Origin: Geomonas subterranea
GTDB lineage: Bacteria > Desulfobacterota > Desulfuromonadia > Geobacterales > Geobacteraceae
Length of the DNA: 64,000 nucleotides
Assembly: GCF_019063845.1 (NCBI RefSeq)
Contig: NZ_CP077683.1
Location: 1,550,001 to 1,614,000, forward strand
Direction: 5' to 3'
This document shows, piece by piece, positions 7,707 to 58,836 of the stretch (position 1 is the stretch's first letter; every line of letters begins with the position of its first letter). The translations under genes were made by a program, and so were the position numbers. Under the pieces are notes generated by a model. The model worked only from the letters and a program-made list of their open reading frames with translations. It was not told where the DNA came from and ran no database searches.

Positions 7707-8807
7707 TCAGAACATGAAGCGGCGCATGCTGATGTTGAGCAGGATGCCAATCCCGACCATGGAGGTGACCATGGAGGTCCCCCCGTAGGAGAAGAAGGGA
7801 AGCGGCACCCCCACCACCGGCATCAGGCCGATCACCATCCCCATGTTGATGGCGATGTGCCAGAAGAGCATGGCGGTGACCCCGACGGCGAGCAGCGAGC
7901 CGAAACGGTCGTTGCAGCGCTTGGCGATCCCGAGTCCCCAGAGGATCAGGAACAGGTAGAGGGTGAGCATGAGCAGACACCCCAGAAAGCCCCATTCCTC
8001 GGCGAAGACGGAGAAGGCGAAGTCGGTGTGCTGCTCCGGGAGGAAGCGGAGCTGGGACTGGGTCCCCTGCATGAACCCCTTGCCGAAGGTGGCGCCGGAG
8101 CCGACCGCGATCTTGCTCTGGATGATGTGATAGCCGCTCCCCAGCGGGTCCAGGTCGGGGTTCAGGAAGTTGTAGATGCGCTTTTTCTGGTAATCGTGGA
8201 GCAGGAACTGCCAGGCGACCACCACGGTGGGGACGGCGGCGGCGAAGATGGTGGCGAGGGCGGTCCAGCGCACCCCGACGAACAGGAGCATGCTCCCGGC
8301 GATCAGCGACACCAGTATGGCGGTGCCGAGGTCGGGCTGTTTCATGATCAGCACGGCGGGTATCCCCAGAAGGAGCAGCGGCTGCAAAAGCTCCTTCAGG
8401 GTGAGCCCCTTGAAGACCGGGTAACGGCTGAAGAAGCGGGCGAAGGTCATGATGATGACGATCTTCATCGGCTCGGAGGGCTGCATGTTGAAGAAGCCCA
8501 GGTTGATCCAGCGGGTGGCCCCCATGCTGGTCTTGCCGGCGACAAGGACCAGCACCAGCAGGATCAGCACGCCGCCGTAGAGCCAGTAGGCGAAGTCCTC
8601 CAGCATATGGTAGTCGAGGCTGCAGACGGTAAGGCACAGCCCGAGTCCCGCCACGATCCAGTAGAGCTGTTTCAGGTAGTACGGGGTGCCGACGTCCCGG
8701 TAGGAGGACGATGCGCTGTATATGTTGATGACCCCGAAGGCGGTGATGAGGAGCACCACTCCCAATAGGGTCCAGTCGAAGTTGGTGAATAGCCGTCTAT
8801 CGAACAT
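7707..8807 (-). CDS. rodA: peptidoglycan glycosyltransferase RodA
   Basis: The 366-residue integral membrane protein has about ten hydrophobic segments and the SEDS hallmarks: the FAEEWGFLGCL block, GSGATFGKGFMQGTQ and the C-terminal PFFSYGGTSM. It polymerises lipid II into glycan strands during cell elongation, in complex with the transpeptidase encoded just upstream (mrdA). The gap to mrdA is 56 bases on the same strand, consistent with one operon. Length and motifs are normal for the family. Confidence 0.95.
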   Translation of the reverse strand: MFDRRLFTNFDWTLLGVVLLITAFGVINIYSASSSYRDVGTPYYLKQLYWIVAGLGLCLTVCSLDYHMLEDFAYWLYGGVLILLVLVLVAGKTSMGATRWINLGFFNMQPSEPMKIVIIMTFARFFSRYPVFKGLTLKELLQPLLLLGIPAVLIMKQPDLGTAILVSLIAGSMLLFVGVRWTALATIFAAAVPTVVVAWQFLLHDYQKKRIYNFLNPDLDPLGSGYHIIQSKIAVGSGATFGKGFMQGTQSQLRFLPEQHTDFAFSVFAEEWGFLGCLLMLTLYLFLILWGLGIAKRCNDRFGSLLAVGVTAMLFWHIAINMGMVIGLMPVVGVPLPFFSYGGTSMVTSMVGIGILLNISMRRFMF

Positions 8808-44506: not shown

Positions 44507-46336
44507 TTACCTCGGCATGGTGAGCCCCTTCTCCGGACGGGAGAAGGAGTGGCACCAGGAGCAGTCGTTGCCGCGGGTGTCCACGTGGCGGCCATGGAAG
44601 GATACATAGTCGCCGGAGTAGGTCTTGACCACGTGGCACTGACCGCAGACGACAGATTGGGCTGCCTTCAGGGCGTAACCCATGTTGGTGGTCAGCTTGA
44701 GCTGGGTGGCGCTGGCGTTGGGGTGGCAGGCCGCGCAGGCAAGCACGTTGCCGGTTGCCGGCGGGACCTGGTGGTTCAGCGCCTGCAGTTCGTCGGTGAT
44801 CACGGTGGTGTACGCGGTGGTGCTCGGGATGCCCATGTAGGTCATGCCGTCCTTGACCGCCTGATCGTAGTTACCGGTCGCGAAGAAGGTCGAGGTGGAG
44901 ATGGTCACCACTTTGCCGTTCACCAGCGCCTGGTTGGCGGTCTTGTACTTGAAGGGGTAGAGCTTGGTCCCGGCAGGATCGGTGATGGCGCCGACCGGGC
45001 GGGAGATCTTGTACGCGTTGGTGGCCGGGTCGAGGACGGCCGCGTTGAAGGCGTTGTTGCCCCAGCTGGTGCCGTTCCAGAAGGCGTATTTGGGGATCAG
45101 GTCGTTGGCCTTGGTCGGCATCGGCTCGTAGCGGGAAAGCGTTGCGTTCCACTCAGCCACCTGCCAGTTGCGGTTGGTCTCGGTGGCTTCGGTGTTGGCG
45201 GTGTCGTTAGCGTTCTTGCCGTACTTATTGATGTGGCAAGCCTGGCATGCGACGCGGGAGATGTGGTCATTGACGGCCGCAGTGACGTGGCCGGTCACGC
45301 CGGTCTTGGTCGGGTGGCAGGCGGTGGTGGAGCAGGTCACCTCGGCGGTGCTGTCCTCGGGGCGCAGGTCGGAGCCGCGGCCGGCGACGCGATGGCCCAC
45401 GAAGCTGTGGCACCCCTGGCACTGGATGTTGCCGCCGCTCCCCATGGCCATGTGCGTGTCGTACAGGACGTCGGAGGTGGTGCCGGAAGCGAGAGCGATG
45501 TCGCCCCGTTTGACGGCGTCGCCGCCGCCCGCCTTGGCATGACAGCCCAGGCAGTTCTTGCGGGTCGGTTTCTGTCCCGCCTTCTGGACCACGAGGTTCA
45601 TGTCGAGACCGGCGGCCGGCTCGAACAGGCCGGTGGTGGCGTTACGCACGCGGTTGTAGGGAGCGTTGGTGGCATCGGCATGGCACATGAGGCAGTCGAT
45701 GGAAGCGAGTTGTGCGGAAGTCGGGTTGCTGGTGGCTACCGGTTTGGCACCGGTGCCGGCGTGGCAGGCGCCACAGGGGCCCCAGTTGCCCTGGATGTTG
45801 ATGCAGTATGCGTTCAGCGCGGACGAACCGTCGGTAGCGTCCATTTTACCCTGGGTCGCAGGCCCGGTGGTCATCTCGGCAGCGGAGCCTCTCCACTGGT
45901 AGTGCACGCCCTGGTACATGGCCTGCGCCTGGCTGGTGTGGCAGGAGGAGCACATGGCGTAGCCGGTCCAGGTCAGGGTGGCATGGGTGGAGGTGCCGCC
46001 ACCGGAGATGGTGTAGGTCTGGGACTTCACGGTCTCCAGGTTGCCGGCGGTGTCCTTCGAGAAATACTTCAACGTCTTGGTGGTGCTGAAGGTGAGGGGG
46101 GCGCTGTACACGGTCGAACTGGTGGTCGGGGTGGAGCCGTCCGTCGTGTAGTAGGTGGTTGCCGGTTCGTTGACCGAAAGGGTCACGGTGACCGCGCTGG
46201 TGAAGGTCCCCCCCAGGGGTGAAGCGGTGGTCGTCGGAGCGGTTCTGTCCGCGACCGGTTTGCCCGCCATCGCTACCGGCACGCCAAGTGCCAGGAGCAT
46301 GGCGAGGCAGGTGAGTGCTACCAACAGTTTTTTCAT
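44507..46336 (-). CDS. secreted decaheme c-type cytochrome with chitobiase-like domain
   Basis: The 609-residue protein has a signal peptide (cut near AMA-GKP), a chitobiase C-terminal-like beta domain (about 30-105, with YYTTDGSTPTTSSTVY), then nine CXXCH heme sites (CSSCH, CGACH, CLMCH, CLGCH, CQGCH, CQACH, CAACH, CGQCH, CSWCH) and one CX4CH (CSTTACH). Many further His can act as distal ligands. It likely carries electrons across the periplasm or outside the cell in metal reduction. The ribosome site AGGAGG precedes ATG 46336. A structured leader lies upstream. Confidence 0.92.
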   Translation of the reverse strand: MKKLLVALTCLAMLLALGVPVAMAGKPVADRTAPTTTASPLGGTFTSAVTVTLSVNEPATTYYTTDGSTPTTSSTVYSAPLTFSTTKTLKYFSKDTAGNLETVKSQTYTISGGGTSTHATLTWTGYAMCSSCHTSQAQAMYQGVHYQWRGSAAEMTTGPATQGKMDATDGSSALNAYCINIQGNWGPCGACHAGTGAKPVATSNPTSAQLASIDCLMCHADATNAPYNRVRNATTGLFEPAAGLDMNLVVQKAGQKPTRKNCLGCHAKAGGGDAVKRGDIALASGTTSDVLYDTHMAMGSGGNIQCQGCHSFVGHRVAGRGSDLRPEDSTAEVTCSTTACHPTKTGVTGHVTAAVNDHISRVACQACHINKYGKNANDTANTEATETNRNWQVAEWNATLSRYEPMPTKANDLIPKYAFWNGTSWGNNAFNAAVLDPATNAYKISRPVGAITDPAGTKLYPFKYKTANQALVNGKVVTISTSTFFATGNYDQAVKDGMTYMGIPSTTAYTTVITDELQALNHQVPPATGNVLACAACHPNASATQLKLTTNMGYALKAAQSVVCGQCHVVKTYSGDYVSFHGRHVDTRGNDCSWCHSFSRPEKGLTMPR

Positions 46337-46483: not shown

Positions 46484-46763
46484 GTTACCATCCCGCCCCG
46501 CCGGGCTGAACTCCGACCGGACTGGTGGGCAGTTACCCCCAATATGAGCATCATCCGTTCCACTCAAAAATCTCAGTTTCTGCATGTAAAATAAAAAATC
46601 CACCCCCGGTCATGAGGATGGATTCAGTAGAAATCATTCAAAGCCACATCGTTAGGTATATTATTAACGACGGCCAGACGCACCTATTCACGCATAAACA
46701 ATGCGAAAATAAAATAAGAATAAATTATTTTAATGGCAGCAACACTTATAACATGTGGGGCAT
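46484..46763. other. intergenic region with AT-rich half
   Basis: This holds the likely cytochrome promoter region on the minus strand. The half toward 46763 is distinctly AT-rich and has no reading frame with support. A hairpin-like AATCC/GGATT pair lies at about 46597-46625. A weak TTGAGT (minus, about 46569-46564) with TATTGG 17 bases on is the only promoter-like pair noted. Confidence 0.4.
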
Positions 46764-48758
46764 TTAACGCTCCAGCACCTCCCTCACCTTGCGCAAAAGC
46801 TCCATCGGCTGCACAGGCTTCATGATCAGTTCTACCCCTTCCTGCATCCCCCGGCTCTGGATGAAGTCCGCGGTATATCCGGAGGTGAAGAGCACCTTCG
46901 CACCGGGCTGGATCTTCTTGATCTCCGCATACGCCTCTATCCCGTTCTTACGGGGCATGATGATGTCCATCAGCACCAGCTCTATCCCCTCCTGCTGGGT
47001 TTGGAACCGCTGCACGACCTCCTCGCCGTCTTCCGCCAGGATAACCTGGTAGCCGTGCCTGGACAGCACCATGTCCACCAGGCTGCGCACGCTGGGGTCA
47101 TCTTCGGCGACCAGTATGGTCTCCGTGCCGTGCCGGGGCAGAGGCTGCGACGCGAGGGCCGGTTCCAGCGCGTCAGCTCCCTCGATCAGCGGAAGTTCTA
47201 TGGTGAACACCGTCCCCTCGCCCGGCTTGCTGCTGACCCTTATGTTCCCCTTGTGCTGCTGTACGATGCCGTACACGATCGCCATGCCGAGCCCGGTTCC
47301 CTTCCCCACCTCTTTGGTGGTGAAGAACGGCTCGAAGATCCTGCGGCTGGTATCCTCGTCCATCCCCTCCCCGGTGTCGGCGACGATGATGACCGCGCGG
47401 GGGCCGGCGGCTTCGCCATGTCCGTGACCGGTTCCATCGCGCAGACCGGTGGCGATGGTGATGGCGCCCCCTCCAGGCATGGCGTCGCGCGCGTTGGCCG
47501 CGAGGTTTATGAGGACCTGCTCGATCTGGGCGAGATCGACCTGCACCGGCAGCGGCTCCGGGAGGATCTCGGTCTTGAGCTGTATGTCCTCGCCGATGAC
47601 GCGCCCCAAGAACTGCTGGACGCGGCGCACGATGTCGCCAAGGTCGCAGCGCTGCTGGCTCATGGCCTGCTTGCGGCTGAAGGCGAGCAGTCCCCGGGTC
47701 AACTGCGCGGCGCGTTCGGCGGCGGCCGCTATCTGGTCGGCCAACCCGTACTGCGCGCTCTCGGAGGTGAGATCCATTTTGAGGATGTTGGCGTAGCCGG
47801 CGATAACGGTGAGGACGTTGTTGAAATCATGGGCGACCCCACCCGCCAGCTGCCCGATCGCCTCCATCTTCTGGGCCTGGCGCAGCTGCTCCTCCATCAG
47901 TTGCCGTTCGGTGATGTCCGTTATGGCTCCCGACATCCGCACCGGCTTCCCGGCGCCATCCCACTCCGCCTGTCCGCGGCAGCGCACGCGGAGGTACTCC
48001 CCTCCCCGGGTCCTGAGCCTCAGTTCCAGGTCGAAGGGGGTCTGGCCGAGAAAGTGCGCGTTGAGGGAGTCCTGCACGTGGAGAAGGTCGTCGGGGTGCA
48101 CCCTGGAAAAGAAGCTGTCCGGGCGGTTTGCCAGTTCGTCGTCGGCGAAACCCAGGAGCTCCTTCCAGCGGGGTGAGTAGTAATAGTCGTCGCTCACCAG
48201 GTCCCAGTCCCACAAACCGTCGCTCGTGCCGCGCACGGCGCGCGAATAGCGGGCCTCGTTCTCCACCAGCCGCTCCAGGTTCTCCTGCAGTTCCAGGTTC
48301 GCCTGGGAGAGCTGCGAGGTGCGTCGCTGCACCAGCGCCTCGAGGGAATCGCGTTCCTGGCGCAGGGCGTCCTCGGAGCGCTTGATCCGGACCATCGCCC
48401 TGATCTGGGCCACCAGTTCCGCCTCGTCGAAGGGCTTGGAGAGGAAGGCGTCGGCCCCGCACTCGAGCCCCATGACGCGGCAGGCGGAGTCGCTTCTGTG
48501 GGCGGTGACCAGGATGACCGGGATGTGCTGGGTCGCGGGGGACGCCTTCAGGCGCCGCGTCGCCTCGAAACCGTCCATTCCCGGCATCTGGATGTCGAGC
48601 AGGATGGAGTCGGGAGCCTCCATCCCGGCCCGGCGTATGCCGTCCTGCGCGGACTGCGAGGTGATCAGCTGAGCCTCGGGCAAAAAGGTCTTCAGCAGCG
48701 CGCTCAGGGTGAGAAGGTTATCCTGGTTGTCGTCGATGGCGAGAAGCTTCATGCTCAC
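46764..48758 (-). CDS. hybrid kinase: REC-PAS-HisKA-HATPase-REC
   Basis: The 664-residue protein has an N-terminal receiver ([14 protein letters not shown]; Asp in [15 protein letters not shown]), a coiled coil, a PAS domain with PAC (residues about 165-285), HisKA with [18 protein letters not shown], a HATPase ([29 protein letters not shown]) and a C-terminal receiver with [11 protein letters not shown]. It has no membrane segment, so it is cytosolic and takes its signal through the first receiver. It lies 33 bases after the four-receiver kinase and is probably phosphorylated by it. Confidence 0.9.
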
Positions 48759-48791
48759 TGGGTCCTTTCAGGATGTCTGCGACAGCGCGTT

Positions 48792-51700
48792 CTAGGCCGG
48801 GGTGGTGCCCTGCGGAGCCACGAAGCCCGCCACCAGCTCCTGGAGTTCCTCGGGCTGGTAAGGTTTTGAGAGGTAGGCAGCGCACCCGGCCGCCAGCACC
48901 TTCTCACGGTCGCCAGCCATGGCGCTCGCCGTCAGCGCCACCACCGGGATCGCGGCCGTGGCCGGGTCCTCCTTGAGCCTTTGCAGGACCGCGAACCCGT
49001 CCAGCACCGGCAGGTGCATGTCCAGAAGGATCAGAGACGGCGCGGAACTTCTGGCGGCGTCGAGCCCAGCCGCTCCGTCGCACGCCTCGATGACCCGGTA
49101 GCGCCCGCCGAGGGCGGCCTTCAGCGTGACCAGGTTGTCCGGGTTGTCCTCCACCACCAGCAGGGAACCGTCCCCCTCCCACGCGGCCGGCGGCGTCAGG
49201 GTGGCGGGGGCTGCGCTCGCGCTTGGTGGGCGGAACAGGCTCACGCTCCCCAGCATCTCGTAGACCCGCTGCAAGAGGTCCTGGAGCTCCACGTCCCCCT
49301 TCTGCACCAGCTGGTGAACCTTCAAATCCCTGAGCCGGTCGAACTCACCCGGCGAGAGCGTCTTGGCCGTCATCACCATCACCGGCACGCCGGCGGTGAG
49401 GCTGCTGGCACGGACCGCCTCCAGCACCTGGAAACCGTCCACCTCCGGCATCATCAGGTCGAGCACGATACCGTCGGGGACGTGGGACTTCAGATAGGTG
49501 AGCGCGTATCTGCCGCCGGAAACCGCGTCGACGCGATATCCGGCCGATTCGAGGGCAAAGCGAAGCTGCACCGTGGCCGCCTCGCTGTCCTCGACGATCA
49601 GGATTCTCGCCCCCTGGCTCTCCTCGCGCCCGGGGAGCCGCCACCCCAGCCGCTCCAGGCTCCCCACCAGTTCATCGAGGACCTTCCGGCGCTCCATGCC
49701 GTTTTTGGAGATAATGGCGCTCACCCCGCTGGAGAGCCGCTGCAACTCGGCGTGGGTGAGTTCCTTCGAGGTGATCACCACCACCGGGATGTCCGCCGTG
49801 AGGGAGTTCGACCTAAGCCGGTCGAGCACGGCGGCGCCGTCCATCCCCGGCATGAGGAGATCCAGCGTGATCAGGTCGGGGTGATCCGAAACGGCAAGCT
49901 CGAGCGCCTCCGGGCCGCTTTCCGCCAGGAGCACGTCGAGCCCCTTCTCCTTGAACAGGGAGGCCAGGAAGCAGCGATCGTACTCGTTGTCGTCGACGAC
50001 CAGCACCAGCCGGCATCCCGCACCGGTCAACCGCGCGAACGCCTCCATGAGCTGATGCTGGCCGACCGGCTTGCTGATCACCCCGACCGCCCCGAGCGCG
50101 ATGCCGGTGGCGCGGTCCTCGGAGAGGGAGATGATCATAACCGGTATATCGGCGGTTTCGGGATGTTCCTTGAGCTCCCTCATGACCTCCCACCCGTCCA
50201 TCTCGGGCATCATGATGTCCAGGGTGATGGCGAAGGGGCGGTTGGCGCGGGCGAGCCGCAGCGCGTCCGGGCCGTTGAGTGCGCTCAGTGTGCCATAGCC
50301 GGCCTGGCTCAGGTGGGTTGTGATAAGGGAGACGGCCTCCGGGTCATCATCGACAACGAGCACCGATCTTCCCGGAACCTGCACCGCCGCTGCTCCCGGT
50401 CCCGGTCCCGGCGCCGCTCCCGGCGCAAATCCGGCTCCCCGTGGCGCCCGCTCCCCCAGCGCCTGCGCCACGGGGAGAACTTGCTCCCTCGCGCCAGCGG
50501 CCTTGCCGCAGTCCAGGGGGAGGCGCAGGGTGAATACCGAGCCCCGGCCCAGCTCGCTGCTGACCGCCACATCACCTCCAAGGAGGAGGGCGCTCTTCTT
50601 GACTATGGCGAGCCCCAGCCCCGTCCCCTCGTAGGAGCGGGAGGTGGAGCCGTCGGCCTGGCGGAACTCGTGGAAGATACTCTCCAGGTACTGCGGCGCG
50701 ATGCCGATCCCCGTGTCCGCCACCTCGAAGACCAGTTCCTGCGCCTGCACTTCCAGCCGCACGGTAACCGCCCCCTGCGCCGTGAATTTGACCGCGTTCC
50801 CCACCAGGTTCTGCAGCATCTGGCGCAGCTTCTTCACGTCGATCAGCATGCGAGGAACCGTCGCCGGTGCCGAGAACGACAGAGCAATCCCCTTCTCCCG
50901 GGCCAGCACCTCGAGGCCGTCCACGACCTCTGCTGCAACCTTCGCCGGGTCCACCGACTCCATGAAGAGGTCCTGGCGCCCCGACTCGATCTTGGCCAGG
51001 TCCAGGATGTCGTTGATCAGGGAAAGGAGATGCTTGCCGTTTCTCTCGATGATGCCCAGGTACCCCCGCTCCTCCTCGGTCAGCCGGTCGCCCCCCTGTA
51101 TCGCCAGTACGCGGGAGAGGGCCAGAACGGAATTGAGGGGGGTGCGCAGCTCGTGGCTCATGTTGGAGAGAAACTCGCTCTTCAGGCGGGTCGCCTCCTC
51201 GAGGAGCTGCTTTTGCTGGTCCAGGACGCGGTTGCGGCGGGCCAGTTCGTCGGACTGGTGGGCAAGCTCGGTGGACTGCTGCACCAGTTCCTCGGACTGC
51301 TGCACCAGCTCGGCGTTCTTGACCGCGAGCTCGGACGCGAGCCGGCGCACATCCTCGGCCGCCAGCACCCTGGAGTATGCGGACCCCAGCTGCACCCGGA
51401 CCATCTCCAGCGTGTCGTGCACCCAAAGCGGAAAAGGGTGCTCCGATGCCAGCGACACGAAGGCGCGCAGCTCACCGTCCGCCTCGACCGGTACGGTAAC
51501 CACCTCGGCGGGAGCTATCTCGCCAAACGGGGTGACAAAGCGCAGCCCCTCCCCCGCCATGCCGGGGGCGAAGCGGGAGATGCCGCGCGAGGTAAGGAGA
51601 ATCCCCAATTCCCCCTCGAGCCGGGAACGGCTGTAGCGCTGCATGCGGCCGGAGTCGGCGCCGATGGCGTGGGCGGGGACGAAGTGATCCTCGCCGTCCT

Positions 51701-52943
51701 CAACGAAGGCCGTGGCCATCCTGGCTCCGGTCACTTCCACGAAGGCCGGGAGCAGCTTTTTGAAAAAGTCGTCCAGGCTCACCGCGTCGACCAGTCGCTC
51801 GGAGAGCCGCGCCACACCCTGCTTCGCCGCCATCTTAAGCTGCAGGGTGTCCGCCATGGCGTTGAAGGAGCCGGCCAGTGATATCTGCTCCAGGGTCCCT
51901 TCCGGTGCGAGCCGCGCCTCGTAGTGACCGGCACCGAGCTCGGTGGCGGCTTCGGAGAGCTTCACCAGGGGCGCGCTGATGCCACGCGCAAGCCTCAAGG
52001 CGAAGACCCAGGCGAGCAGCGAGATGAGGGCGGCCATGCCGTAGGTGAGGTAGAGCGCCTGCCTGATCGGGGCGAACACCTCCGCCGAATCCTGCTTGCA
52101 TACCAGTCCCCACCCGGTTCGCGGGATGTGGGAGTAGGCGGAAAGAACGCTGGCGCCGCGGTAGTCGACGGTCTGGGCTATTCCGCTTTGACCGCCAGCC
52201 GCGAGCAGCGCGGGTTTACCCGTGAGCTTCACCTTGAGCACCGCGTTGGGGAGGCCGCGCAACTCGAGAAGGGGGCGCACGTTCCGGTCCACCAGCACCA
52301 CCTCTCCGGTTTTGCCCATCCCGGTGCTGTTCTCCAGCATGACGGAGAGGAGTTTGCGCAGGTTGTACCGCACCACCACCGCGGCCCTGCCTGCACCTCC
52401 GCTTCCCCCCTTCACCGGCGCGGCCAGGTCCAGGCTGGCGTTCCCCTCGGCGCCAAAGAGGTATGCCTCACCGATGACCGGCGCGGCGTCGTTCAGGGCG
52501 GTGACCACCATCTCGGGCCTCGCGATCCGGTTCCCTCTCCTCCCCTGGTCGGTGCTGAGCAGGATGGTGCCGTTTTCCGCGACGATGGAAACATCGGCTG
52601 CCGATTCGAACTCGTCGCGGTAGCCGCGCAGCAGCTGCAGACCATCCGTGGCGGACGCGCCGGACCATTCAGCCGGGGTGGCCGCCAGCGACCGCGCCGC
52701 GAGCTGCACCGACTTCCCCGACCCGAGCGTGGAGACGTCGCTCATCAGGTTGTCCAGCGTGGCGTTGATCTGGTCCTGGCGCAGCGCCGTGACCGCCGAG
52801 AGCTTGTCCAGCATCAGCGACCGGGCCAGTTGCACCCGCTGGAAGTAGATGGCCGTGGTGAGAACCGCCAGGGGGACCAGGCAGATCGTGGTGAACCAGA
52901 AAGCCAGACGCCCCTTCAACGTCGGCAAAAGCTTCAATTTCAT
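48792..52943 (-). CDS. membrane hybrid kinase with four C-terminal receivers
   Basis: The 1383-residue protein has a transmembrane helix (about 12-32), a Cache-like periplasmic domain, a second helix (about 295-315), HAMP, a GAF-like domain (about 380-525) and a Gln/Glu-rich coiled coil. HisKA (NMSHELRTPLNSVL) and HATPase (GNAVKF, VADTGIGI, GTGLGLAIV) follow, then receivers at about 870-985, 990-1105, 1125-1240 and 1257-1380, each with the phospho-acceptor Asp (TLDIMMPEMDG, TLDLLMPGMDG, VLDLMMPEVDG, LLDMHLPVLDG). Its ATG overlaps the substrate-binding gene by four bases (ATGA). Confidence 0.9.
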   Translation of the reverse strand: MKLKLLPTLKGRLAFWFTTICLVPLAVLTTAIYFQRVQLARSLMLDKLSAVTALRQDQINATLDNLMSDVSTLGSGKSVQLAARSLAATPAEWSGASATDGLQLLRGYRDEFESAADVSIVAENGTILLSTDQGRRGNRIARPEMVVTALNDAAPVIGEAYLFGAEGNASLDLAAPVKGGSGGAGRAAVVVRYNLRKLLSVMLENSTGMGKTGEVVLVDRNVRPLLELRGLPNAVLKVKLTGKPALLAAGGQSGIAQTVDYRGASVLSAYSHIPRTGWGLVCKQDSAEVFAPIRQALYLTYGMAALISLLAWVFALRLARGISAPLVKLSEAATELGAGHYEARLAPEGTLEQISLAGSFNAMADTLQLKMAAKQGVARLSERLVDAVSLDDFFKKLLPAFVEVTGARMATAFVEDGEDHFVPAHAIGADSGRMQRYSRSRLEGELGILLTSRGISRFAPGMAGEGLRFVTPFGEIAPAEVVTVPVEADGELRAFVSLASEHPFPLWVHDTLEMVRVQLGSAYSRVLAAEDVRRLASELAVKNAELVQQSEELVQQSTELAHQSDELARRNRVLDQQKQLLEEATRLKSEFLSNMSHELRTPLNSVLALSRVLAIQGGDRLTEEERGYLGIIERNGKHLLSLINDILDLAKIESGRQDLFMESVDPAKVAAEVVDGLEVLAREKGIALSFSAPATVPRMLIDVKKLRQMLQNLVGNAVKFTAQGAVTVRLEVQAQELVFEVADTGIGIAPQYLESIFHEFRQADGSTSRSYEGTGLGLAIVKKSALLLGGDVAVSSELGRGSVFTLRLPLDCGKAAGAREQVLPVAQALGERAPRGAGFAPGAAPGPGPGAAAVQVPGRSVLVVDDDPEAVSLITTHLSQAGYGTLSALNGPDALRLARANRPFAITLDIMMPEMDGWEVMRELKEHPETADIPVMIISLSEDRATGIALGAVGVISKPVGQHQLMEAFARLTGAGCRLVLVVDDNEYDRCFLASLFKEKGLDVLLAESGPEALELAVSDHPDLITLDLLMPGMDGAAVLDRLRSNSLTADIPVVVITSKELTHAELQRLSSGVSAIISKNGMERRKVLDELVGSLERLGWRLPGREESQGARILIVEDSEAATVQLRFALESAGYRVDAVSGGRYALTYLKSHVPDGIVLDLMMPEVDGFQVLEAVRASSLTAGVPVMVMTAKTLSPGEFDRLRDLKVHQLVQKGDVELQDLLQRVYEMLGSVSLFRPPSASAAPATLTPPAAWEGDGSLLVVEDNPDNLVTLKAALGGRYRVIEACDGAAGLDAARSSAPSLILLDMHLPVLDGFAVLQRLKEDPATAAIPVVALTASAMAGDREKVLAAGCAAYLSKPYQPEELQELVAGFVAPQGTTPA

Positions 52944-54073
52944 TTAGCACCGTCCGATGGGTCAGAGTTGCGGTAGTCGAAGCGTTGCAGGGCCAGCGTG
53001 TCCCCCTCGGCCATGACCTGCCGCATCATGTCAATGTCAAAAGAGTCGCGCACCTTGGCCCACGGCGTCGCCTCAGGGATCTTGCCGGTACGCTTCAGGA
53101 AGGTGAACTTCTTGTAGAGCAGCCCCTCCTCGTTCAGGAGCGCAGCCGGGATGCGCGGCGCTCCGGGGACGTTGAGGAGGTCGTTGCGGATGATGGTGGT
53201 CATCGCCCGCCTGGTCACCTGGTATGGCGCCCCCTGCAGCCTCGCGGCCGACCCGGCGGTCCAGCCGGCGGCCTGCTCCAACTCCTTGGGTACGCGCATC
53301 CGCGCGCAGGCGCGCGCCACGGCGGCGGCGACCTCCCGGGCACGCCCGGGGTGGGACCGGACGAAGTCCCGGCGCAGGCAGAGGAAGCCGTAGCTCACCC
53401 CCTTGTGCACCAGGTGGTATTCGGGGTGCGCGGCAATGGCCAGGGTCGGCGTCGGTTCCCACGCGGCGAAGGCGTCTATCTTCCCCTCCGCGAGCGCCTG
53501 GGGCATCCCGCTCACCTCCATCGGTACCAGCTCGATGTCCTTTTCGGTCAGCCCCTCGTTTTGCAGCGCGCTCAACAGCGTGAAATGGGCGGCCGACCCC
53601 ACGCCGGTTGCGATCCGTTTACCCTTGAGGTCCCGCACCAGCATAGGCTTTTTGGAAACGATGCTGGCCGCGCCCTCCTTCAGCAGCGCGACACAGACGA
53701 ATTCGCCGGTGGCGGCAGCGGTCAGGGCCGGCATGTCCGCGAAGATCCCCCCTTGCAGCTTGCCCGAGGAGAGAAACCCGGCGATGTCCTTCCCCTTGAA
53801 GAAAGGATGAATCCTGACCGAACACCCCCTCTCGGCAAGCCGGGAGGCGAGGATGGAGTCGCGGGAGAGGAGTTCCGCCACCGCCCCTTCCGGCAGGGTG
53901 AGCGGCTGTGAACCGAGGTCGATCACCTCCTCGCCGCCGAAACTGTAGCCTGCGTAGCGCTGCGCGGCGGCCCCTTCCTTGGCGGCTTGTGCGTTATTTT
54001 CCTTGCGGGAACACCCGAACAGGAAAAAGGAGATCAGCAGGGTTGTCGCCAGGCATCTCACCACGCTACGCAT
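52940..54073 (-). CDS. ABC-type substrate-binding lipoprotein (SsuA/NMT1-like)
   Basis: The 377-residue protein has a signal sequence with lipobox LFGC and a type II periplasmic binding fold with GGIFADMPALTAAATGEF, LKGKRIATGVGSAAHFTLLSAL and ALAEGKIDAFAAWEPTPTLA, the layout of taurine/nitrate/thiamine-precursor binding proteins. No permease or ATPase gene is adjacent; instead it is overlapped by the kinase gene (4 bases) and the cheR gene (1 base). It therefore likely serves as a sensor subunit that presents ligand to the kinase. The start at 54073 follows GGGAGG. Confidence 0.85.
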   Translation of the reverse strand: MRSVVRCLATTLLISFFLFGCSRKENNAQAAKEGAAAQRYAGYSFGGEEVIDLGSQPLTLPEGAVAELLSRDSILASRLAERGCSVRIHPFFKGKDIAGFLSSGKLQGGIFADMPALTAAATGEFVCVALLKEGAASIVSKKPMLVRDLKGKRIATGVGSAAHFTLLSALQNEGLTEKDIELVPMEVSGMPQALAEGKIDAFAAWEPTPTLAIAAHPEYHLVHKGVSYGFLCLRRDFVRSHPGRAREVAAAVARACARMRVPKELEQAAGWTAGSAARLQGAPYQVTRRAMTTIIRNDLLNVPGAPRIPAALLNEEGLLYKKFTFLKRTGKIPEATPWAKVRDSFDIDMMRQVMAEGDTLALQRFDYRNSDPSDGAK

Positions 54074-54909
54074 CAGGCCCTCCCGGTCTGCAGCTTGCGG
54101 TACAGGTTGCCGCATTCGAAGATCCGCGCCAGGTGCGCGTGGTAGCGATCAGGCACGGCTTCGGCCTTTCCCAGGAGCAGGACGCCGCCCGGGTTCAGGG
54201 CGCGGAACAGGTTGTCGAACACCCTCAGGTACGCCTGCGGGTCGAGGTACATGAGAAAATTGCGGCAGGAGATGAGATCGAATCCCCCGAACAACGATTC
54301 GGGCGGGGCGTAGGTATTGGGGTCGAGGAGGTCATGGCGGCAGTAGCTGATCATGGAGAGGATCTTCGGCGAGACGCGGTACCCACTCCCCTCGGGCGTG
54401 AAGTAGGCGCCGAGTTGCCGCAGGGTGACCCCCCCCAGGCTTCCCGGCGCATAGTATCCGGCACGCCCAATCTCCAGCGCATCCTCGGCCACGTCGGTGG
54501 CGAAGATCTGTACCGTGGGGCAGACCTCGAGCAGTTGCATGGTTTCGTCGATGACGATGGCGAGTGAGCAGGCTTCCTCTCCGCCGGCGCAGGCAGCGGA
54601 CCAGCAGCGCAGGAACCCGCCCTGCGACTGGGTGGAGCTGAGGCTCGTCATGATCTGCGACCTGAGCAGTTCGAACTGGAGCGGGTCCCTGAAGAAGCTG
54701 CTGAACCTGATGCGCAGCATGCGTGCCAGGCAGGCGGGCTCGCCGGGGTCGTGCCGCAGGAACTGGTGGTACTCCGTCTGACCTGGAAGACGAAGCTGTT
54801 TCACCCGTTCGGCGATGCGTTTTTCGGCAAGGGATTGGGAATAGGACTGGAAATCTTCCCCGAAATAATCGGTGAGAAAACTCAGTATTTCGACTACCGG
54901 CTCACCCAA
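54073..54909 (-). CDS. cheR: CheR-type protein-glutamate methyltransferase
   Basis: The 278-residue protein has an N-terminal helical domain (FLTDYFGEDFQ, RIAERVKQLRL), then RFSSFFRDPLQFELL, the SAM-binding WSAACAGGEEACSLA and the ISCRNFLMYLD motif. It should methylate glutamates on a chemoreceptor, but no receptor, cheB, cheA or cheW gene is in the window. It is the first gene of a minus-strand operon whose promoter lies at about 55004-55037. Its stop TGA shares one base with the next start. Confidence 0.88.
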   Translation of the reverse strand: MGEPVVEILSFLTDYFGEDFQSYSQSLAEKRIAERVKQLRLPGQTEYHQFLRHDPGEPACLARMLRIRFSSFFRDPLQFELLRSQIMTSLSSTQSQGGFLRCWSAACAGGEEACSLAIVIDETMQLLEVCPTVQIFATDVAEDALEIGRAGYYAPGSLGGVTLRQLGAYFTPEGSGYRVSPKILSMISYCRHDLLDPNTYAPPESLFGGFDLISCRNFLMYLDPQAYLRVFDNLFRALNPGGVLLLGKAEAVPDRYHAHLARIFECGNLYRKLQTGRA

Positions 54910-55003: not shown

Positions 55004-55037
55004 ATTACACCTTTTCACTATCTTAAGTCAATGAGAA
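55004..55037 (-). promoter_or_regulatory. promoter with shared TTCTCATTGACTT element (site 3)
   Basis: On the minus strand the element runs 55037-55025 with -35 TTGACT (55031-55026). TGTAAT (55009-55004) follows after 16 bases. It lies about 95 bases before the cheR start and faces it. Confidence 0.6.
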
Positions 55038-55085
55038 ACAGCTTTTCAAATCGAAACATAAATATAAGATTTGTAAACATTTATA

Positions 55086-55183
55086 ATAGGCGGAGCCGTT
55101 GTCAGTGACCTGATAGGAGGAGCGGCGTCAGTGACATAATAGGCGAAGCCGTTGTCAGTGACACAATGCGCGGAGCGTCAGAG
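55086..55183. repeat. 27-base degenerate tandem repeat
   Basis: ATAGG(C/A)G(G/A)AGC...GTCAGTGAC recurs at 55086, 55113 and 55139, with a partial fourth copy from 55166. Units differ at several bases. Confidence 0.7.
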
Positions 55184-55584: not shown

Positions 55585-57945
55585 CTAGAACGTGCTGTGC
55601 TCGGTCCTGGTGATGATCTCGTCCTGCAGCTCCGGCGAGAGGTCGCAGAAGTAATCGCTGTACCCGGCGACGCGCACGATGAGGTCGCGGTGCTCCGAGG
55701 GGTTTGCTTGCGCCTTCTTCAGGGTGTCCACGTTGACCACGTTGAACTGCACGTGGTGCCCGTCCATGCGGAAATAGCTCCGCACCAGGCTTGCCACGCC
55801 GTCGAGGCCGCTAGCCTGCGCGAGGAGCGTCGGGGAGAACTTGAGGTTCAACAGCGTGCCACCGCTTCTGATATGATCCATCTTTCCCGCCGAGCGGATC
55901 ACGGCGGTCGGGCCGCCGCGGTCAGCCCCCTGCACCGGTGAGATTCCCTCCGAGAGCGGCGTCCCGCGCTTGCGCCCGTCCGGGGTGGCGCCGGTGACGG
56001 AGCCGAAGTAGACGTGGCAGGTGGTGGGGAGCATCTCGATGCGGTACACGCCGTTCTTGGTGTTGGGTCTTCCGTCAACCTCCTGGAAGAAGGCGTCGAA
56101 CACCTGCCGCATCAGGTCGTCGGCGTAGTCGTCGTCGTTGCCGTACTTGTGGGTCTTGTTCCACAGGCGTTGCCTGAGCGGTTCGTCGCCGGAGAAATCG
56201 GCGTCGAGCTTGGCCACCAGTTCCGGGAGTGAGAGGGTAGCGCGCTCGAAGACGTGGTCCTTGATGGCCGACAGCGCGTCGGTGATGCTCCCGATGCCCA
56301 CCCCCTGGATGAAGCTGTTGTTGTAGCGTGCCCCCCCGGCGTTGTAGTCCACGCCCCGGCTGATGCAGTCATCGGTCAGGACCGACAGGAAGGGAGCCGG
56401 CATCTGGGAGGCGTAGATCATCTCTATGAGGCGGTTCCCCCGGATCTTGATGTCCAGAAAGTGGGAGAGTTGGGAGCGGAACGCCTCGAAAAGTTCATCG
56501 AAGCTGTTAAAGCTCTCCGCACTCCCCGTCTTGGGTCCCAATTGCACCCCGGTCAGCGGGTCCACGCCGTCGTGCAGGGCAAGCTCCAGCATCTTCACCA
56601 GGTTGAAGTAGCCGGTGAGGATGTAGGCCTCCTTGCCGAAGGCGCCCACCTCGACGCAGCCGCTGCAGCCGCCGGCGCGGGCATCGACAAGCGTTTTCCC
56701 CTGGCGCAGCTGCTCCTCCACCACGGCGTCGGCGTTGAAGATGGAGGGGAAGCCGTACCCGTTACGCACCACCTGCAGGGTATGCTTCAAGAAGACGTCC
56801 GGGGACTTGCGCGACAGCTGGACGTTGCTGGAGGGCTGCAGCAGGTGCATGTCGTCGATCACGTCCAGAAGCAGGTGCGATACCTCGTTGGAGCCGTCGG
56901 AGCCGTCCGGCAGCAGCCCCCCCAGGTTGATGTTTGCGAAGTCGGTGTAGGTGCCGCTTTCCGCCGCGGTCACCCCCACCTTGGGGGGCGATGGGTGGTT
57001 GTTGAACTTGACGAAGAAGCATTCGAGCAGCTCGCGGGCACCTTCCCTGGTGAGCGTCCCCTTGTTCAGTTCGGTCTGGTAGAAAGGGAACAGGTGCTGG
57101 TCCAGGTGTCCCGGGCTGAAGGCGTCCCAGCCGTTCAGCTCCGTGATCACCGCCAGGTGGCAGAACCAGTAGGACTGCAGCGCCTCCCAGAAGTCCCCGG
57201 GAGCGTGCGCCGGCACCCAGCGGCAGTTGGCGGCGATCTTCAGGAGTTCCTGCTTGCGCACAGGATCCGTGCAGGCTGCGGCCATGCTCTCCGCGAGTTT
57301 CGCGTGACGCTCGGCGAAGAGGATCACGGCGTCGCAGGAGATGTCCATCGCGGTCAGTTGCTCGCGGCGCGCCCAGGCGCCGGCGTCGGAGGCGAAATCG
57401 AGTGCCTCGATGGCCTGTGCGATCTCCTTCTTGAAGTCGAGGAGCCCCTTTCGGTAGATCTTGTCGTCCAGCACCGTGTGCCCGGGGGCGCGCTGCTCCA
57501 TGAACTCGGTGAAGATGCCGTAGCTGTAGGCCTGGTGCCACTCCGCGGGGAGGGCGCCGAAGATCTTGTCGCGCAGGCTGCGGGTGCCCCAGTACGGGAT
57601 CACCGTCTCCTGGTAGGCCTTGAGGCAGGCGTCGTCAACGCGGTAGGAGGTCAATTCGCGCGAGTTGAGGATGCGCAGGTCCTCGACGGAATGACAGGTC
57701 AGCTCCGGGTAGGTCGAAACCAGCTTCGGAGCCGGCCCCCTCTCCCCGACCACCAGTTCGCCTTCCCCGATGTAGATGGTCTTCTTCTCGCACAGGTAGA
57801 GAAAGGAGTTGGCCCGCATGACCGGGACCGACCAGCGCCCTTCGTTTTCGCGGTAAAACTCGGTGAGCAGCAGCGCGCGTTCCGCGGAGATGGCGGGCTC
57901 GGCGGTAAGGCTTTCCTGGCGCAGTCGTTGTGTCCGTGCGTTCAT
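55585..57945 (-). CDS. hypD: glycyl radical enzyme, hydroxyproline dehydratase (HypD)-like
   Basis: The 786-residue protein has the C-terminal glycyl radical loop RVAGYSDYF (Gly761) and the active-site loop GGCSGCVEVG (Cys430, Glu432), so it is a dehydratase-type member and not a pyruvate formate-lyase with a CC pair. FTEFMEQRAPGHTV, ELNGWDAFSPGHLDQH and MLPTTCHVYFG match what I recall of trans-4-hydroxy-L-proline dehydratases. These remove water from hydroxyproline to give pyrroline-5-carboxylate. No proC-like reductase is in the window. It abuts its activase gene directly. Substrate is inferred. Confidence 0.75.
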   Translation of the reverse strand: MNARTQRLRQESLTAEPAISAERALLLTEFYRENEGRWSVPVMRANSFLYLCEKKTIYIGEGELVVGERGPAPKLVSTYPELTCHSVEDLRILNSRELTSYRVDDACLKAYQETVIPYWGTRSLRDKIFGALPAEWHQAYSYGIFTEFMEQRAPGHTVLDDKIYRKGLLDFKKEIAQAIEALDFASDAGAWARREQLTAMDISCDAVILFAERHAKLAESMAAACTDPVRKQELLKIAANCRWVPAHAPGDFWEALQSYWFCHLAVITELNGWDAFSPGHLDQHLFPFYQTELNKGTLTREGARELLECFFVKFNNHPSPPKVGVTAAESGTYTDFANINLGGLLPDGSDGSNEVSHLLLDVIDDMHLLQPSSNVQLSRKSPDVFLKHTLQVVRNGYGFPSIFNADAVVEEQLRQGKTLVDARAGGCSGCVEVGAFGKEAYILTGYFNLVKMLELALHDGVDPLTGVQLGPKTGSAESFNSFDELFEAFRSQLSHFLDIKIRGNRLIEMIYASQMPAPFLSVLTDDCISRGVDYNAGGARYNNSFIQGVGIGSITDALSAIKDHVFERATLSLPELVAKLDADFSGDEPLRQRLWNKTHKYGNDDDYADDLMRQVFDAFFQEVDGRPNTKNGVYRIEMLPTTCHVYFGSVTGATPDGRKRGTPLSEGISPVQGADRGGPTAVIRSAGKMDHIRSGGTLLNLKFSPTLLAQASGLDGVASLVRSYFRMDGHHVQFNVVNVDTLKKAQANPSEHRDLIVRVAGYSDYFCDLSPELQDEIITRTEHSTF

Positions 57946-58836
57946 CTATGCTCCCCCTCCTATCTGCGTGTCCAATCCCCGGGCTGTGAACAGCCGGGCG
58001 AAATCTTCCATGGTTTCCCGTGCGGGAGTCCGCGCCGCCACGGCCTCGGCGGCCGATTCCTTCCCAAGGCGCGCGGGCTTCGCGGTCCAGCTGCCGTGGT
58101 AGGGGAGGAGCCAGACCTGGCGCACTCCGGCGGCACGTGCGGCGAGGCCGGCCAGCGCCTCCATCTCTTCGGTCGTATCGTTGAAGCCCGGGACAACCGG
58201 GATCCGGATCCAGATGTTGCGGTGCACACGCCCCAACTGCTCAAGGTTGTCGAGGATGAGCCCGTTGCCCACGCCGGTCCCCTGATGGTGCAGGGTGTCG
58301 CTTGCGCACTTTAAATCGAAGAGGAAGAGGTCCACCAGCGGGGCGAGATCGAGCAGCGTCTCGGTCGGGCAGAGAGCGGCCGTATCGACGGCGGTGTGGA
58401 TGCCCTGGGCGCGGCAGGCGTTCAAGAGAGTTTTCAGGAAGGCCGGTTGGCAGAGAGGTTCACCGCCCGAGAAGGTAGCCCCGCCGCCGGAATCCTCGAA
58501 AAACATGCGGTCCTTGAGGATGTTGTGCAGCACCTGTTCCGCAGTCATTTCCGAACCGAGGAGTTCGCGTGCCCCGGTTGGGCAGGCCTCCGCGCAGTCC
58601 CCGCAGGCCCGGCAGGCCTCCCTTGGCTGCAGTCCCTCGTGGCAGGCCAACAGGCAGGCGTCGCAGGAGATGCAGCGGTTCTGCGACCAGGCCGTTTGAG
58701 GAGAGGAAGTTTGGCTTTCCGGGTTATGGCACCACCAGCAGCGCGCCGGGCACCCCTTGAGAAAGACCGTAGTGCGAATCCCCGGCCCGTCGTGCAGCGA
58801 GTAGCGTTGCACGTTGAAGACGATGCCGCTATCCAT
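57946..58836 (-). CDS. glycyl radical enzyme activase (radical SAM)
   Basis: The 296-residue protein has the activase cluster CPARCWWCHNPES (Cys29, Cys33, Cys36). Two ferredoxin-like clusters follow in an insert (CISCDACLLAC and CRACGDCAEACP), as in activases of dehydratase-type glycyl radical enzymes, and then FSGGEPLCQP and DLFLFDLK. It installs the glycyl radical on the enzyme encoded immediately after it. The stop codon and the next ATG touch. Confidence 0.93.
   Translation of the reverse strand: MDSGIVFNVQRYSLHDGPGIRTTVFLKGCPARCWWCHNPESQTSSPQTAWSQNRCISCDACLLACHEGLQPREACRACGDCAEACPTGARELLGSEMTAEQVLHNILKDRMFFEDSGGGATFSGGEPLCQPAFLKTLLNACRAQGIHTAVDTAALCPTETLLDLAPLVDLFLFDLKCASDTLHHQGTGVGNGLILDNLEQLGRVHRNIWIRIPVVPGFNDTTEEMEALAGLAARAAGVRQVWLLPYHGSWTAKPARLGKESAAEAVAARTPARETMEDFARLFTARGLDTQIGGGA

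Follow-up and report, generated by a model that had tools for sequence, protein, structure and literature searches.

A linked CheR methyltransferase and hybrid histidine kinase with an inserted binding lipoprotein in Geomonas subterranea

Why should a gene for a CheR-type methyltransferase stand directly in front of those for a binding lipoprotein and two histidine kinases? The question is raised by a four-gene unit in the 4.99-Mb single-contig genome of the soil bacterium Geomonas subterranea, located on the minus strand at positions 54909-46764 of the window (the whole stretch of 64,000 nucleotides that was analysed, positions 1,550,001 to 1,614,000 of contig NZ_CP077683.1) in the order cheR, lipoprotein and two kinases, called HK1 and HK2 here. 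The answer that we consider moderately probable is that a sensor kinase of the membrane has here an adaptation enzyme of its own, with a ligand-binding accessory inserted between them, a module in which CheR would methylate a coil of HK1, the lipoprotein would present a ligand to the dCache sensor domain of HK1, and HK1 would phosphorylate a receiver of HK2.

A conserved cheR-kinase core with an inserted lipoprotein gene

The core of the unit is cheR and HK1, with a receiver-kinase gene next to them, and the lipoprotein gene is an insert, which 12 of 26 loci lack or have lost by deletion. These loci were obtained by searching 277 genomes of the class with residues 1-648 of HK1 alone, of which 27 matched at 1e-40; as four candidates were scored in each genome, further ones may have escaped. 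In all of the 26 readable loci, cheR directly precedes HK1 or, where the lipoprotein or a remnant stands before HK1, directly precedes that gene; G602 was left out of the count because its contig begins inside the kinase. In G541 the CheR open reading frame (ORF) is partial (124 aa), and in G646 the contig edge cuts off all of CheR but its C-terminus. Between cheR and HK1, the lipoprotein was found in 14 loci and an in-frame remnant of it in 2. The other 10 have neither of them, and there the ORFs of cheR and the kinase are 3-75 bases apart or overlap.

The arrangement was constant within the genus. A search of 141 genomes of the order detected a close orthologue of the window lipoprotein (55-82% identity) in 14 of the 19 genomes of the genus, including the source, and all 13 others with an orthologue showed the order cheR, lipoprotein, HK1, HK2. 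This conservation had been set by the original prediction as its own test, and it was observed in 14/14 genomes holding the lipoprotein; in G045 this order persists amid different flanking genes. Since the gene order is conserved, a chance origin of the four-gene layout is excluded. G036, G042, G043 and G044 gave no orthologue of the lipoprotein and, at 1e-40, no match to HK1.

The two remnants were of different extent. In G032, a 67-codon ORF (L071, ~8240-8480) keeps the signal peptide, the lipobox and the last ~45 residues, a 945-base in-frame stretch having gone from the lipoprotein in comparison with the near twin G031. The remnant of G088, a genome from another family, is a 35-codon ORF (L147, ~8400-8510) that keeps the C-terminal FDY tail. 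Both run into the HK1 start through the same ATGA overlap, and an in-frame remnant could preserve translational coupling or the tail; the mini-lipoprotein of G032 may still be made. In a maximum-likelihood tree of 34 kinases, the binding-protein-linked members of the clade grouped, with moderate support (86/94), with the CheR-less Desulfobacteraceae kinase L016, and eight other binding-protein-linked kinases formed a separate group (100/100). The tree would fit a binding protein that was gained once and later deleted twice, and a cheR gene that was lost once.

The close packing of the unit was as originally described, with four minus-strand ORFs separated by a 1-base overlap, a 4-base overlap and a 33-base gap. 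The cheR gene (54909-54073) opens with a TTG codon that has GGAGG just 5' of it, and the 1-base overlap follows from taking ATG 54073 as the lipoprotein start (lipobox LFGC); the opening of the mechanical ORF is earlier, at 54115. The lipoprotein stop and the HK1 start have four bases in common (52940-52943). HK1 ends at 48792, and after the gap HK2 starts at GTG 48758 or, alternatively, at ATG 48752.

The coil of HK1 as candidate substrate of CheR

HK1 (48792..52943, minus strand) is a hybrid kinase of 1383 aa with two transmembrane segments (TM) and the order TM-dCache-TM-HAMP-GAF-coil-HisKA-HATPase followed by four receivers (REC). Pfam gave HAMP, HisKA, HATPase, the four REC and, at 42.5 bits, dCache_1 (under the 45-bit cut-off); the GAF domain, without a Pfam call in HK1, was assigned from the homologue L151, in which Pfam finds it. 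The motifs H597, N-box and G1 were present.

The coil, or signalling helix, between GAF and HisKA (residues 536-590; 51174..51338, minus strand) carries Glu545, Glu552, Glu559 and Glu566 in heptad register, and its conservation makes it the predicted methylation region. It was more conserved (0.82) than GAF (0.57) and Cache (0.56) among 8 sequences, with HisKA at 0.90, and once again (0.50 vs 0.33 and 0.30, HisKA 0.71) among 11 sequences. Counted back from the motif FLSN, Glu was found at -39, -32 and -25 (E552, E559 and E566 of HK1) in 25/25 readable CheR-linked kinases and at -46 (E545) in 22/25, and Gln at -35 (Q556) in 25/25 and at -28 (Q563) in 24/25; L016, G602 and G541 do not enter this count. 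As an own-genome control, the best 30 of the 123 HisKA matches in the genome were used, 7 of which were dropped as they are without the motif, and three Glu in the HK1 register were observed only in HK1 among the 23 readable kinases. Methylation sites of chemoreceptors such as Tar and Tsr are also 7 residues apart. The conserved heptad glutamates are no more than suggestive of methylation of the coil. When the coil was read by eye for the methylation-site consensus of methyl-accepting chemotaxis proteins (MCPs), it showed no exact match.

Some observations weigh against this part of the module. When heptad runs of Glu were counted free of register, HK1 had five and two other kinases of the genome had four, these two in another register and with no CheR near them. 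All of the 25 ladder kinases are one related group, for which shared descent is a sufficient cause of the ladder. In the CheR-less relative L016, Glu stands at two of the three core positions and Gln at the third, and no demethylase was found near the window genes.

The enzyme itself (54073..54909, minus strand; 278 aa) is proposed as the modifier of HK1 on the grounds of Pfam, solved relatives and adjacency. PF01739 scored 138.7 bits and CheR_N 29.2 (cut-off 27 for each), and the closest solved relatives were CheR structures (5xly, E=7e-25). Its substrate could instead be HK2 or some chemoreceptor encoded far away, the adjacency to HK1 being a regulatory convenience, as MCPs are the normal substrates of CheR and the genome has 13 CheR matches, several of them adjoining CheD- or CheB-like genes (read by eye), so that chemotaxis receptors are likely to be available. 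We regard this as decidedly unlikely, given that CheR accompanies HK1 in all 26 readable loci, that no MCP, CheA, CheW or CheB was found in the 25 loci searched, window included, and that methylation by a CheR-type enzyme is known for a kinase with HK1's domain order (PMC4574943). The searches were made by BLAST at 1e-5 with single references from the order. CheB, CheD, MCP, CheA and CheW were found neither in the window, which bears out the original claim that this cheR has no receptor or other che gene beside it, nor in 24 other HK1 loci (some contigs were short). Twenty-seven fetched loci were covered, namely the 24 HK1 loci, L155 and two repeats, with L194 and L195 left out. The unit therefore resembles CheR-MCP adaptation of chemotaxis in its enzyme family and in coiled-coil glutamates at 7-residue spacing, but differs from it in that no MCP, CheA, CheW or CheB was found beside cheR and the coil belongs to a histidine kinase.

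L155 (G111:C62, 1199-7984, minus strand), which lies outside the 27 HK1 matches, encodes CheR, a hybrid kinase with a Glu-ladder coil and two REC, a CheD-like protein and a REC-kinase. The CheD-like domain is fused to ~300 further residues, and two receptor-modifying enzymes flank the ladder kinase. No MCP was found in this locus by BLAST.

A CheR-type enzyme that acts on a kinase has been described in Bacillus cereus, where RsbM methylates the signalling helix of RsbK and represses it (PMC4574943). RsbK has the architecture CHASE3-HAMP-GAF-helix-HK-CA-REC (PMC4574943), the gene BC1007 beside rsbK was annotated as cheR (PMC3788345), and RsbK and CheR are reported to be associated in genomes (PMC12848376). 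The original prediction had found no name for the layout. That did not hold, since the core of CheR with HAMP-GAF-coil-kinase-REC matches RsbM-RsbK (PMC4574943, PMC12848376) and pairs of substrate-binding protein (SBP) and kinase genes are known as well (PMC11113362). As in RsbM-RsbK-RsbY (BC1007, BC1008 and BC1006; PMC3788345, PMC4574943), a CheR-type gene lies beside that of a membrane hybrid kinase, the order HAMP-GAF-coil-HK-CA-REC recurs in HK1 (GAF by homology only; the likeness was judged by domain order and gene pairing), and a separate REC protein is encoded close by. The CheR-HK1 pair may work like RsbM-RsbK, which is an experimental precedent for the original suggestion that CheR may methylate the kinase (PMC4574943, PMC12848376).

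It could also be argued that the unit is simply another RsbK-RsbM system, to which the lipoprotein, the four receivers and the second kinase add nothing new. The cytoplasmic domain order and the CheR pairing are the same, and 127 RsbK-like kinases in 10 phyla are reported in PMC4574943. Nevertheless, HK1 has a dCache domain and four REC where RsbK has CHASE3 and one, the next protein is the REC-PAS-HK-REC kinase HK2 and not a REC-PP2C phosphatase for sigma B such as RsbY, and a ligand-binding lipoprotein is inserted in a unit that, in RsbM-RsbK, is without a binding protein; we find this view rather unlikely. CHASE3 was not among the Pfam matches of HK1, nor were the RsbM and RsbK families among the best 25 of its 159 NCBIfam matches. 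The pair was not classed as a member of RsbM-RsbK because the CHASE3 and REC-PP2C features were not found and methylation is a prediction.

The lipoprotein and the periplasmic sensor

The inserted gene (52940..54073, minus strand) encodes a predicted periplasmic binding lipoprotein of 377 aa with the lipobox LFGC, an SsuA/TauA/NrtA fold and a C-terminal extension with the FDY tail, as read from Pfam and the predicted structure. The NMT1 family scored 40.6 bits (cut-off 20.5), a lipobox-like Cys was present in 14/14 orthologues, and the sequence-profile matches included TauA and SsuA. The model (pLDDT 89.8) aligned 278 residues with SsuA 2x26 at Z 27.2 and a root mean square deviation (rmsd) of 2.5, and its fold is of the SsuA/TauA/NrtA kind as a prediction. 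The last ~20 residues lie outside the matched model range 27-338 and contain the tail, whose Tyr was invariant in 15 aligned relatives. The protein is like the binding proteins of SsuA/TauA/NrtA ATP-binding cassette (ABC) transporters in fold (Z 24-27) and in sequence family (NMT1), but it is 15-22% identical to the solved ones, has no adjoining permease or ATPase gene, carries the extension with the FDY tail, and its examined relatives are linked to kinases.

The partner proposed for it is the periplasmic domain of HK1 (residues ~41-290; 52074..52823, minus strand). No solved relative was found at 0.1 by sequence profile alone. The model of residues 1-330 (pLDDT 85.4) gave PscC dCache 6mni in Foldseek with TMt 0.77, and comparison with 6mni (VIA) resulted in Z 20.1, rmsd 3.0 and 243 aligned residues, and with DctB 3by9 in Z 19.0; dCache domains of kinases and chemoreceptors were among the best structural matches. 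The modelling supports a predicted dCache fold and with it the Cache-type kinase originally proposed, in spite of the Pfam score below cut-off. Binding proteins encoded next to such kinases are familiar from LuxP-LuxQ, where LuxP has a ribose-binding-type fold and the periplasmic domain of LuxQ is of the tandem-PAS/dCache type. Here too, a binding protein is encoded beside a kinase with a (predicted) domain of that type and no transporter adjoins; the window protein differs as an SsuA/TauA/NrtA-fold lipoprotein, and its docking is a proposal.

Distant relatives of the lipoprotein are linked to kinases. In 17/17 loci examined, of 23 found at ~1e-37 or better, the gene directly downstream of the relative encoded a sensor kinase, or the sensor half of a truncated one, and one of these loci is in Nitrospirota; the kinase was read as two ORFs in L072 and L020, and L014 showed only the sensor half before the contig end. 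CheR was not among the called ORFs at these 17 loci. Within the own genome, four of the five SBP-family matches were linked to kinases, one of the four being a weak match (E=8.6e-4) inside the kinase protein of L085, and the fifth (L149) lies in an SsuABC-like transporter. The link of this lipoprotein family to kinase genes is real, and binding of the lipoprotein to HK1 would be a further step; sbp genes next to sensor kinases are a known arrangement (PMC11113362).

Could the lipoprotein be no signalling partner of HK1, scavenging for a distant transporter or standing by, with the dCache domain sensing the ligand directly? The natural losses speak for this and against its role in the module, as most of the lipoprotein is gone in G032 and G088 while the other three genes were kept, and 10 of the 26 CheR-HK1 loci are without it. 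Ligands bind many dCache domains directly, with solved examples among the structural matches, and the Pseudomonas aeruginosa binding proteins tested with neighbouring kinases (AgtB and PA0602 with AgtS, PA4985 with AruS) did not bind (PMC11113362). The genome also has at least one SsuABC-like locus. Its binding protein is, however, a separate one, 28-31% identical to the window lipoprotein, all of the 17 distant relatives examined directly precede a sensor kinase, and an own-genome relative lies inside the kinase protein of L085. We consider this alternative unlikely.

A cognate ABC pair elsewhere had been named by the original prediction as the finding that would count against it; at least one SsuABC-like locus exists, with its own binding protein, which answers this condition only in part. 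The absence of a transporter beside the lipoprotein stood, as none of the 19 PF00528 permease matches of the genome falls in the window, the nearest being at 1,484 and 1,759 kb. More distant relatives in G223 and G151 (25-27% identity) adjoin ABC permease and ATPase genes (read by eye). A phylum search with the SBP alignment matched 3 of 395 sampled genomes at 1e-30; a wide spread of the lipoprotein within the phylum is unsupported by this sample because only these three matched and the two besides the source adjoin ABC permease and ATPase genes (by eye).

Other SBP-kinase arrangements were observed in the same searches. L085 (2555-5698; G000:C1, ~2222.6-2225.7 kb) is a single 1047-aa protein with a weak SBP-family stretch, kinase and receiver domains. 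L072 (6157-10120; G000:C1, ~3812.2-3816.1 kb) is the second SBP-kinase pair of the genome, its kinase reading as ORFs of 473 and 493 aa, in contrast to the single ORF of L079 (965 aa) and of L086 (945 aa). In L076, L077, L078, L080 and L083, two tandem SBP genes precede one Cache kinase, possibly as paired binding proteins per sensor.

Output, transcription and meaning of the unit

HK2 (46764..48758, minus strand) is, by Pfam, a soluble REC-PAS-HisKA-HATPase-REC kinase of 664 aa, and its N-terminal receiver (48384..48758) is the proposed target of HK1 from its conservation across loci. The next gene 3' of HK1 opened with an HK2-like receiver in 23/24 readable loci, and in G646 this receiver was in the second gene; G577, G541 and G110, whose contigs end, are not in the count. 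This receiver was 42-63% identical in distant loci. In G088, G614, G550 and G123 its conservation (49-63%) exceeded that of the kinase which follows it (32-39%), but this was not so in G586 (42 vs 45%) or G058 (53 vs 52%). The four receivers of HK1 (residues 858-1383; 48795..50372, minus strand; four Response_reg stretches) each have the Asp, two found by motif search and two by eye. Pfam reported no histidine phosphotransfer (HPt) domain in HK1, so a REC-to-REC relay inside the operon would be without a His intermediate, which tells against the proposed phosphotransfer.

The single promoter originally predicted is likely, and only likely, because sigma70-like matches sit upstream of cheR but terminator-like sites were not above chance. 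Two such matches (55164-55136 and 55049-55020, in the minus-strand region 55020..55164; consensus matches only) precede cheR and none was found inside the genes on the operon strand; in all, four were found on both strands of 9.5 kb, with 0.9 expected. A hairpin with a T run follows HK2 (46596..46625, minus strand), and with three terminator-like sites found in the region vs 5.3 expected, the count gives it no weight. The closely spaced genes would form one transcript.

Two 42-nt direct repeats, 83% alike and at a spacing of 53, are present upstream of cheR (55083-55177). A genome search with a 27-base pattern taken from them (up to 2 mismatches) gave no match besides this place, and among 16 upstream regions of 420 bases each the core GTCACTGAC was found in this genome only and was absent from the 15 others. 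No conserved promoter element was common to these 16 regions.

Beyond the unit, positions 55585-58836 encode a glycyl-radical enzyme (NCBIfam trans-4-hydroxy-L-proline dehydratase, 1246.6; cut-off 1100) and an activase (below cut-off). The dehydratase-like gene was rejected as a clue to the ligand, as it lies upstream of 14/15 genus operons, G045 excepted, and more likely reflects genus synteny. Downstream of HK2 (44507-46336) is an octaheme-cytochrome-like protein whose N-terminal part is a chitobiase-C/Fn3-associated domain and whose match to a tetrathionate reductase family model is below cut-off; the gene is not at the same place in G028, G031, G032, G040 and G045.

In the module that we favour, HK1 would sense through its periplasmic dCache domain, on or near which the lipid-anchored SsuA-like protein, loaded with a small (probably anionic) ligand, would dock and change the conformation of HAMP, GAF, coil and HisKA. 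The dedicated CheR would methylate the heptad-ladder glutamates of the GAF-HisKA coil, resetting the kinase output as RsbM does for RsbK. HK1 would autophosphorylate at H597 and hand the phosphate on, both to the receivers within HK1 and to the first receiver of HK2, and the kinase half of HK2 would carry the output onward. The original interpretation is in this way partly supported.

Each part is of a known kind, and as a combination they form a new variant; by title or abstract start, no description of a cheR-SBP-kinase operon was found in searches of open PMC papers, one of which ranked 300 of 11,377. Tentatively, and as a possibility on the doubtful side, a complete chemoreceptor-style sensor (dCache and HAMP domains, a heptad-Glu coil that accepts methyl groups, and delivery of the ligand in the periplasm) would be wired into a histidine kinase, the dedicated CheR would provide adaptation or memory outside chemotaxis, and the lipoprotein, inserted exactly at the cheR/kinase junction, may dock the kinase through its FDY tail, which is kept in both deletions. 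Among the papers found, one system, B. cereus RsbK, is shown to have a histidine kinase methylated by a CheR-type enzyme. The present loci suggest that adaptation as in chemotaxis may work on a histidine kinase itself. The cheR-kinase pair, linked in every readable locus of the class search and with a strict Glu ladder, makes methylation-based adaptation testable as a general property of some two-component systems, and the natural series in which the lipoprotein is intact, internally deleted or not present offers a comparison for the contribution of a binding protein to a dCache kinase.

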